In this document: piece by piece, positions 16,385-36,019 of the stretch
Numbering within the stretch: the first letter of the stretch is position 1
Layout: every line of letters begins with the position of its first letter
Assembly (NCBI RefSeq): GCF_007923295.1
Contig: NZ_VOIR01000017.1
Coordinates: forward strand, 62,001-126,000
Origin: Agrococcus sediminis
GTDB lineage: Bacteria; Actinomycetota; Actinomycetes; Actinomycetales; Microbacteriaceae
DNA: 64,000 nt
Direction: 5' to 3'
Position numbers and translations under genes: made by a program
The notes under the pieces: model-generated
Database searches by the model: none
Seen by the model: only the letters and a program-made list of their open reading frames with translations
What the model was told of the DNA's origin: nothing

Positions 16385-16457
16385 GCGCGCGATCGGGCAG
16401 AGCGACGCCGCGGACCCGCATGCAGCGCGACGGTGCGCTCAGGCCGATCGAGCGCAC
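16385..16457. repeat. palindromic repeat A1
   Basis: An imperfect palindrome. The left arm GCGCGCGATCGGGCAGAGCG (16385-16404) pairs with GTGCGCTCAGGCCGATCGAG (16434-16453), with about three mismatches. The 29-base centre contains GCATGC, present at the same offset in copy A2. The copy lies between the BMP-2 promoter and the nuclease gene. Confidence 0.7.
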
Positions 16458-16475
16458 CAGGATGCGCTGAGCGCG

Positions 16476-17186
16476 GTGGCCCGGAGCGGATGCGTCAGCT
16501 GCCTGACCGCGCTCGGGCACCACGGCGCGTGGCTGCCGCGGGGCAGCGCCCTGCGCTGCCGGCTGGCGGACGGCCAGCGCGACCGGGTCGCCGGCGCGCT
16601 GAAGGGCTGCCGCCCCTTCGGCGCGAACCCGGCCGTCGCGCGAGCGATCGACGACGTCGAGACGGCCTTCCGCTGCGCGCTCCGCTGCGCCGGCGCGGAG
16701 GACCTCGTGGCGGTCGCGGACTCGCTCGTGCACCGCCGGATCGCGACGCTCGAGCAGCTGCGCGCCTGGGCGACCGGAGCACCGGCGTCGCGTCGGCGGC
16801 TCCTGGACCTCGTGGGTGCGGCCGCCGAGTCGGGCACGGAGTCGATGGTGCGCGTGCGCCTCCGCGGACTGCGCATCCGCTGCCGCACACAGGTCGTGCT
16901 CTGGCGCGGCCGCCGCGTCGACCTGCTGGTGGGCGACCGCCTCATCATCGGGTGCGACTCCGTGGAGCACCACACCGACCGCGACGCCTACCAGCGCGAC
17001 CGGCGCCACGACCGCATCCACGTGTCGCAGGGCTACCTGGTCGTGCGGCTGACGTGGCAGCAGATCCACGACGAGTGGCCGGCCATCGAGCAGGACCTCC
17101 TCGCGATCGTCCGCCGAGGCGACCATCGGTGGCGTGGCGCGCGCTCGATCGGGCAGAGCGGCGCGTCGGCGCCGCATGCGGGGTGA
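16476..17186 (+). CDS. DUF559 (Vsr-like) domain protein, probably inactive
   Basis: A 236-residue protein homologous to the C-terminal three-quarters of the gene at 34936-35796. Shared landmarks are CVSCLTALGHHGAWLP, VAVADSLVHR, RVDLLVGDRL, DSVEHHTDRDAYQRDRRHD and GYLVVRLTW. The N-terminal winged-helix region of the longer paralogue is absent. In the DUF559 nuclease core the Asp (149) of RVDLL is kept, but the Glu expected in the E-x-D motif is Gly159 (IIGCD; codon GGG at 16950), one base from GAG. The GTG at 16476 is the only reasonable in-frame start; no Shine-Dalgarno sequence is seen. The final residues (RSIGQSGASAPHAG) are encoded by repeat A2. It is probably a decaying nuclease gene. 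Confidence 0.65.
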   Translation: MARSGCVSCLTALGHHGAWLPRGSALRCRLADGQRDRVAGALKGCRPFGANPAVARAIDDVETAFRCALRCAGAEDLVAVADSLVHRRIATLEQLRAWATGAPASRRRLLDLVGAAAESGTESMVRVRLRGLRIRCRTQVVLWRGRRVDLLVGDRLIIGCDSVEHHTDRDAYQRDRRHDRIHVSQGYLVVRLTWQQIHDEWPAIEQDLLAIVRRGDHRWRGARSIGQSGASAPHAG

Positions 17187-17213
17187 CGGCTCGCCCCGGC
17201 CGATCCAGCGCGC
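17141..17213. repeat. palindromic repeat A2
   Basis: The second copy of A1, 756 bases downstream in the same orientation. Left arm GCGCTCGATCGGGCAGAGCG; right arm GGCCGATCCAGCGCGC. GCATGC is again in the centre. It contains the nuclease stop codon (17184-17186) and ends 12 bases before the manC stop, so it may also act as a hairpin between convergent genes. Confidence 0.7.
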
Positions 17214-34690: not shown

Positions 34691-34794
34691 CCGTCGCTCG
34701 ATCTCCACGTCGCCGTGCCCCCATCCGGGATTGCTATACCCAGTACGACAATACCCGACAGCGCGCTTGCAGCCATCGTTCGTCCGACCCCCCT

Positions 34795-34886
34795 GCACAA
34801 CGCAAGCCCAACGGCCCCAATCAGCGGCAGATCGACCGTCCCCGCCTCCGGCGCCGCAAGAAGCTCCGAAGCGGCTTGCGTTGTGC
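34795..34886. repeat. palindromic module B2
   Basis: Perfect 14-bp arms at 34795-34808 and 34873-34886 around a 64-base centre with its own weaker inner pairing (GCGGC ... GCCGC). It lies 50 bases beyond the nuclease stop and about 105 bases upstream of lipB. Confidence 0.85.
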
Positions 34887-34935
34887 GCGGGGGCCGACGC
34901 GGACCCGGTGCGGCACCCGCCGGAGAGGCTGGGAC

Positions 34936-35796
34936 TCAGCCGCGCGGGTGGAGCTCGAGCGCCGCGCGCACCAGCGCGATGAAGCGGTGCGCGTTGTCGT
35001 CGAGCCAGCGCGCCGAGAGGCGCACGGTGACGTAGCCCTGCAGGAGCGCCTCGGCGTCGCGCCGGCGGTCCTCCTCGAAGCTGCCCTCGTGGTGCTCGCG
35101 GCCGTCGATCTCGACGATGACGCAGCCGCACACGACGAAGTCGACCCTGCCGACACGCGGGATCCGCACCTGCTGCTCGTAGTGGAGTCCCGCGGCGAGC
35201 AGCAGCAGCTTCGCGTCGGTCTCGTAGCCCGAGCCGCACTTCCCGTCGACGGCCGCGGCAGCAGGCATCCCGTCCCAGTCGAGCCCCTCGAGCGCCCGCT
35301 CGATGTCGGCGGGGCTCGCCAGCCCGCGGTCGAGCGCCGAGTCGGCGACCCGGATCGCCTCGTGCACGCCGAAGCAGCGCGCGATGCACGCGACCGCGGC
35401 AGCCGCCGACGTTGCGCACCGGTCGCCGTCGTCCGGGTCGAGGTCCTCCCAGTGGAGCACGAGCCCCTCCCGCCGCTCGAGGCGCCGGTGCCGGTCGCGC
35501 GGATCGCGCAGCCGCGTCGATCCGTCCCACAGGTGCACGTGGAGCCGGTCGTCGCTCGGCACCCAGAGCCCGAGGTGCGCGGCGGCAGACGCGCACGCGA
35601 GCCGTCCGCCGATCCGCAGCGCCGAGACGAGCGCGTCGGATGCTGGCTGCCAGACGTAGACGTCGCGGCGGGCCCGCACGAGCAGCCCGAGCCGCAGGCC
35701 CTCCTCGATCGCCGCGCGGCTGCTGCCCTCCTCGCGCAGCTCGCGGTACTCATCCACCCGGACGGCGCCCTGCGAGAGCGGCCTCAGCGTCGACAT
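34936..35796 (-). CDS. DUF559 (Vsr-like) endonuclease-domain protein with N-terminal winged-helix region
   Basis: A 286-residue protein. Residues 1-55 look like the winged-helix region found before DUF559 domains (EYRELREEGSSRAAIEEGL, then GLLVRARRDVYVW). A middle region with AAAHLGLWVP and the conserved VADSALDRG follows. The C-terminal Vsr/DUF559 nuclease core has EQQVRIPRVGRVDFVV, the catalytic-type VEIDGREHH (D219, E229, D231, H235/H236) and GYVTVRLSARWL. All expected acidic residues are present, so it may be active, unlike the paralogue at 16476. The substrate is unknown. The ATG at 35796 is chosen; an ATG at 35835 is in frame. No Shine-Dalgarno sequence is seen. Confidence 0.75.
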   Translation of the reverse strand: MSTLRPLSQGAVRVDEYRELREEGSSRAAIEEGLRLGLLVRARRDVYVWQPASDALVSALRIGGRLACASAAAHLGLWVPSDDRLHVHLWDGSTRLRDPRDRHRRLERREGLVLHWEDLDPDDGDRCATSAAAAVACIARCFGVHEAIRVADSALDRGLASPADIERALEGLDWDGMPAAAAVDGKCGSGYETDAKLLLLAAGLHYEQQVRIPRVGRVDFVVCGCVIVEIDGREHHEGSFEEDRRRDAEALLQGYVTVRLSARWLDDNAHRFIALVRAALELHPRG

Positions 35797-35866
35797 GCGC
35801 GGCAGGATGGATCGTCCGCCCGCCGCTGCGCGCATCAGCTGCACCGACCTGTGCAGAAGCGGCCGC

Positions 35867-35958
35867 GCACAACGCAAGCCGCCCAACCGAGATCTGCGAC
35901 GGCTGCGGCGCCGGCCCCGCGCCGCCCGCTGGTCGGGCGCCGCGGGCTTGCGTTGTGC
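35867..35958. repeat. palindromic module B1
   Basis: Perfect 14-bp arms identical to those of B2 (15 bp if one flanking C-G pair is counted) at 35867-35880 and 35945-35958, with a 64-base GC-rich centre. By hand the centre resembles that of B2 only loosely, slightly better in inverted orientation. It lies between the nuclease start and the rib operon promoter. Confidence 0.85.
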
Positions 35959-36019
35959 GGCGGCGGGCGGCGGGGCCGCCGCCGCGGCGCCGCCGGGCAG
36001 GGATGCGCGGGCACGGGAA

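Follow-up and report, generated by a model that had tools for sequence, protein, structure and literature searches.

Why is a gene for a predicted nuclease bracketed by two palindromes with the same arms, and what ties the palindromes to the enzyme? The window analyzed here, a 64-kb stretch of Agrococcus DNA, contains a gene for a 286-amino-acid DUF559 protein (34936..35796, minus strand; hereafter the focal DUF559 gene), which is the only predicted gene between a palindromic module at 34795..34886 and a second at 35867..35958. The initial annotation described two 92-bp modules with identical arms and 64-bp centres around this gene, and the description proved exact. Each module, for which no strand is assigned, consists of two 14-bp arms and a 64-bp centre; the arms of module 1 lie at 34795-34808 (+) and 34873-34886 (-), those of module 2 at 35867-35880 (+) and 35945-35958 (-), and all four copies of the arm, GCACAACGCAAGCC, have 0 mismatches. 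Shuffled sequences are expected to yield 0.52 matches at ≤2 mismatches, and four were reached in 0 of 100 shuffles. Module 1 also contains an inner dyad, with half-sites GCGGC at 34824-34828 and GCCGC at 34853-34857. The stop codon of the gene is 49 bp from module 1 and its start is 70 bp from module 2. Modules with arm GCACAACGCAAGCC, such as those bracketing the focal gene, are called the 92-bp family below.

The focal protein matches Pfam family PF04480 (DUF559, E 7e-5), to which Pfam assigns no function, and 28 of 29 homologues contain the domain. The protein is predicted to comprise an N-terminal AbiEi-like winged helix and a Vsr/EDxHD-like nuclease domain at about residues 189-286. The AbiEi signals are weak (PADLOC; E 0.017 and 0.04); the predicted nuclease fold matches that of I-Bth0305I and has invariant acidic and histidine residues. 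No transposase family is among the Pfam matches of the protein, no match was found in 50,697 phage records, and the one plasmid match was weak. A role is described for Caulobacter VsrA: the DNA damage response that follows deletion of the methyltransferase ScmA depends on this DUF559 protein (PMC12907096).

Distribution and internal constraint of the 92-bp family

The source genome (G000, 2.74 Mb, with the window on contig C17) contains 36 matches to the arm at ≤1 mismatch (reversed control, 0), which resolve into 17 complete modules, every one of 92 bp, and two solitary arms. All 17 modules are intergenic according to the gene models of a simple gene finder, a placement that is not random, since the same finder assigns about 95% of the window to coding sequence. 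Classed by eye, the neighboring genes are in tandem at eight sites, convergent at five and divergent at four; a terminator or promoter role was considered and set aside, as these 17 sites, so classed, have no orientation bias. Nine of the modules are clustered in ~217 kb (C1:301098-518577). Fifteen of the 17 lie away from the cassette, which does not support the idea that the modules are just the two ends of one element. Moreover, G000 has seven DUF559 matches, including two others on contig C1, and the DUF559 matches other than the focal gene are at least 9 kb from any module of the 92-bp family. The initial annotation held that its reading would be undermined by palindromes that are common without DUF559 neighbors, and locally this is what we find.

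Within the family, exact 12-bp arm pairs were found in 5 of 398 genomes, each of them from this genus, and an exact 14-bp arm scan of a genome collection that may leave out the source genome's own records returned 22 stretches, all Agrococcus. Modules of the 92-bp family are present in 10 of 24 genomes of the genus, with a total of 93 exact-arm modules, and in none of the 388 other-genus genomes of the family sample. Full-length orthologues of the focal protein (70-78% identity) are encoded in six of the 24 genomes, which together hold 82 of the 93 modules (G000, 17; G384, 22; G404, 16; G405, 4; G408, 16; G409, 7). The association with the DUF559 gene that the initial annotation proposed thus stands at the level of the genome, where sequence comparison supports it well. 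It does not extend to 11 modules in four of the 18 genomes that lack the orthologue (G223, 5; G401, 4; G332, 1; G049, 1; the others, 0), which show that a module can persist after its gene is gone or be kept by something else. For G223, a search of 380 kb found two perfect modules and nothing with 1-7 mismatches, so the arms persist there without the focal gene, and decaying ghosts of the family were not seen in this range.

All six orthologues lie ≤1.5 kb upstream of ribD, and with ≤3 mismatches allowed per arm, modules flank five of them on both sides and the sixth (G409) on one. The carriers are scattered on a tree of the ribD region, which was built on DNA beside the cassette and is to be read with that caution; the distribution needs five changes, at least three of them forced, and the link between modules and gene is therefore not the accident of one clade.

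What is conserved within a module? Among 89 different modules of the 92-bp family collected from the loci examined, 77 are 92 bp long, 10 are 91 bp and two are 93 bp. The inner half-site GCGGC occupies module positions 30-34 and is mirrored at 59-63 (40 modules), while mirror pairing in the rest of the centre equals the expectation for independent columns (77 modules). G000 and G384 were compared at seven sites judged orthologous by their neighboring genes, with one G000 module entering two of the comparisons; identity is 93-100% in the arms and 36-67% in the centres, against a mean of 43% (sd 7%) for modules paired at random. These values bear out the earlier proposal that the ends, not the middle, are constrained. 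Centres have a lower folding energy than shuffled centres (mean z -0.98), but without covariation in the centre we do not favor a hairpin as the conserved feature of the family. Instead, fixed length and dyad symmetry without covariation point to a site bound by protein as double-stranded DNA. Beyond the arms, the 40-bp flanks read toward the module are rich in C on either side (C 0.48, G 0.31; 178 flanks of the 92-bp family), a symmetric strand bias that at the cassette includes 34755-34794 and 35959-35998.

Other DUF559 families and their palindromes

Other DUF559 genes of Agrococcus adjoin different inverted repeats. We tested dispersal for seven DUF559 families, including the 92-bp family, each with arms and a length particular to it. 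In all seven, modules matching the flanks of the gene are dispersed in the carrier genome and are rare or absent elsewhere where tested. For arm GCGTTTYGCAGGCGAT, there are 101, 56 and 69 matches in the three genomes whose DUF559 gene carries the arm and ≤3 in each of the other 21. Arm ACACTTCTCGGTCTATG has 41 matches in G410, 33 in G403 and none in 22 genomes (reversed control, 0 to 2 per genome); its cognate gene was not found in the G403 assembly, which is 78% complete. Modules with arm TCAACCGGATRGCCGG, all 61 bp, number eight in G402, nine in G265 and two in G223, a genome that lacks the cassette. G223 keeps two modules of the TCAACCGG family, one with altered arms, without the gene of that family. 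Outside the taxonomic family, G561 contains 12 modules of 70 bp with arm CACAGATGTGACGCTGAGAG, which has 0 matches in 12 relatives. Two predictions were made blind from gene flanks: in G078, 400 kb yielded four further modules, all 94 bp as at the gene, and in G049, 400 kb yielded two, both 65 bp. Reversed and swapped controls gave 0 for both predictions, the swap being their sole comparison with other genomes.

Of 198 genomes sampled across the order, 164 have matches to proteins of the focal type. Of the 29 loci retrieved outside the genus, 17 have at least 14 bp in common between their left and right flanks (300 bp each) and 12 do not; at three shifted positions, the count was 0 of 29 each time. 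At several of these loci, the inverted repeats to the left and right have the same spacing. Within the genus, flanks are shared at 16 of 28 loci versus 2 of 28, 2 of 28 and 1 of 26 at shifted positions.

Movement, loss and possible copying of modules

Within-genome centre identity averages 78-87% in G410, G403, G561, G265 and G359 (7, 8, 12, 9 and 4 modules, respectively, from the loci examined), versus 0.27-0.31 for shuffled centres, which looks like copying rather than convergence. In hairpin-like families, a pairing constraint may add to this likeness. The G561 family has a slight excess of pairing at three columns, and ACACTTC centres are not palindromic. Centres of the 92-bp family are near random and too diverged to show copying, and this family is older than those with alike centres. 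At L328 and L338 of Agrococcus RM44_bin.009, neighboring 92-bp-family modules have centres 83-94% identical, a sign of recent local duplication.

Comparison of the close relatives G402, G265 and G223 (about 90-99% identical at the DNA level over the compared pieces) indicates that movement is slow, since every one of the eight G402 modules has a counterpart in G265. One G265 module has no counterpart in G402 or G223, which have a different short spacer in common. A second site, occupied in G402 and G265, is lacking in G223; at a third, G223 has an unrelated spacer; and at a fourth, a module is found in all three genomes, with altered arms in G223. Where modules differ in presence, spacers are replaced or missing, and clean insertions are not seen. 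Where G265 and G402 carry their cassette, G223 and G000 have unrelated spacers (126 bp and 60 bp, respectively), and homology ends within ~10 bases of the module ends; G411, G405 and G406 hold cassettes with other arms at this position.

For the lipB-ribD cassette of the window, the empty site that the initial annotation suggested looking for does exist: homologues of lipB and ribD adjoin without this cassette in G411, G406 and G399. The target duplication that it also raised was not found; 0 of 89 modules have a direct match of ≥3 bp, and 2-bp matches occur at 0.079 versus 0.085 expected. An insertion sequence or MITE with terminal inverted repeats would call for such a duplication. We likewise do not favor a classical transposon, given the missing duplication and the DUF559 gene as the sole gene between the modules. 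In G384 (L085:3985-6916), two modules bracket ~2.7 kb of other genes, and a single module occupies the matching place in G000 (L074:12898-12989), an arrangement that suggests recombination between modules or a composite unit. Just upstream of ribD in L123 and L124, from G265 and G223, which lack the 92-bp cassette, is a repeated near-palindrome, GCAGAGTGCCGACACTCTGC or similar.

A predicted nuclease and its private palindrome

Which known system does this arrangement resemble? REPIN-RAYT systems (REPtrons) are described as having one copy of the enzyme gene in the chromosome, adjacent to inverted doublets whose spacer is diverse, with more doublets in extragenic space and a repeat type of its own for each enzyme (PMC3116915, PMC8049555). 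The DUF559 system shares one chromosomal enzyme gene beside doublets, further doublets in other intergenic regions and a separate repeat per enzyme (PMC3116915, PMC8049555, PMC3733652): inverted doublets with a variable spacer are dispersed in extragenic space (17 of 17 intergenic; 10 of 24 genomes), and the repeats adjoin the cognate gene on both sides of five of six orthologues and on one side of the sixth. However, RAYTs are described as tyrosine transposases with an HUH motif (PMC3733652), and the enzyme here, by prediction, joins a winged helix to a Vsr/EDxHD-like nuclease domain. REPIN hairpins are reported to show frequent compensatory changes (PMC3116915); none are seen in the centre of the 92-bp family. 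Because its enzyme is not an HUH tyrosine transposase and its spacer lacks compensatory pairing, the DUF559 system is not a member of the REPIN-RAYT group. TIRtrons, which are RAYT-like genes with long terminal inverted repeats, are similar in that the gene is bracketed by repeats that may belong to a dispersed family, but their gene, too, encodes a tyrosine transposase carrying the HUH motif (PMC3733652). The EDxHD enzyme I-Bth0305I is described as a phage homing endonuclease, whereas the gene here is chromosomal and has many short palindromes. Caulobacter VsrA has a DUF559 domain and a Vsr-like predicted fold in common with the focal protein, but the passages cited tie it to mismatch repair at methylated cytosines and mention no flanking or dispersed palindromes (PMC12907096). 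In AbiE toxin-antitoxin systems, an AbiEi antitoxin gene lies beside an AbiEii toxin gene; here there is one predicted gene between the modules, and the AbiEi matches are weak.

On balance, we think it probable that the locus is part of a REPIN-RAYT-like system built on an unrelated nuclease. Each DUF559 protein, probably as a dimer, would recognize its own fixed-length, dyad-symmetric module, copies of which flank its gene and occupy other intergenic sites around the chromosome. The gene itself is chromosomal and, it seems, for the most part inherited in place, and the modules would be non-autonomous copies, spread by the nuclease, maintained by it, or both. The most likely step would be a cut or nick at a module, after which repair copies the module. 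We infer arm binding, dimerization, cleavage and the copying step, and with them the spread or maintenance of modules, as activities of the nuclease. Counting against this reading are modules in genomes where the cognate gene is absent or was not found, the lack of target duplications, replaced or missing spacers in place of clean insertions, slow movement, 92-bp-family centres that have diverged too far to show copying, and the 12 out-of-genus loci whose flanks do not share 14 bp.

An unlikely alternative is that the modules are host sites, regulatory or chromosome-organizing, for a DNA-binding DUF559 protein and are kept by selection, with nothing copied or mobilized. Fixed length without centre covariation in 77 modules would suit such a double-stranded site, as would the sites common to G402 and G265 and arms that stay near-perfect while centres diverge. 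Convergent sites, however, would not readily be alike over whole modules, centres included, as they are within genomes in other families; the ACACTTC centres are not palindromic. Nor does this alternative sit well with the mix of gene orientations, classed by eye, at the 17 sites or with modules bracketing the nuclease gene itself in five of six orthologues. It is quite improbable that the modules are ordinary dispersed repeats spread by another agent, with DUF559 genes merely among them or inserting there. Such an agent would account for the 15 G000 modules away from the gene and the 11 in genomes without an orthologue, but each of the seven palindrome families checked was first identified beside a DUF559 gene and later proved dispersed; five were rare or absent in the other genomes searched, two were blind predictions, and the shifted-position control was 0 of 29. 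Least probable of all is a defence or addiction device in which the nuclease would do harm unless kept on its own modules, which would serve as a sink or self-marker: the predicted AbiEi-like N-terminal part, the few or no modules in genomes without the gene and the VsrA role after ScmA deletion (PMC12907096) would fit, but the PADLOC matches are weak, one gene stands alone between the modules, and phage records gave no match and plasmids a single weak one.

The recurrence in relatives of an enzyme with a private palindrome points to a repeat system of an undescribed kind in bacteria. No report linking DUF559 to such repeats was found in the open-access papers searched. We are evenly divided on a broader proposal, that DUF559/MTES_1575 proteins with an AbiEi-like head form, across the order as sampled, a large undescribed class of selfish or domesticated elements. 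Each would co-evolve with a private fixed-length palindrome, recognized as a dimer and spread or conserved, as a convergent counterpart of REPIN-RAYT that acts by break-and-copy repair and not by single-strand transposition. If so, a common family of unknown function would gain a concrete DNA target, a set of dispersed palindromes would be explained, and there would be a second, independently evolved case in which to ask why bacteria keep small palindromes tied to one enzyme. Since the flanks of each enzyme name its own predicted site, the claim is directly testable.

Elsewhere in the window, Rfam identifies an FMN riboswitch and a tRNA and nothing else, and an NCBIfam search found nothing. 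The riboswitch (RF00050, 36056-36198) lies upstream of ribD and is ordinary. A second DUF559 gene at ~16431-17135 (+) has the repeat CGATCGGGCAGAGCG on either side, at 16390 and 17146; this repeat-bracketed gene (16389-17210) is possibly the other cassette of the initial annotation.
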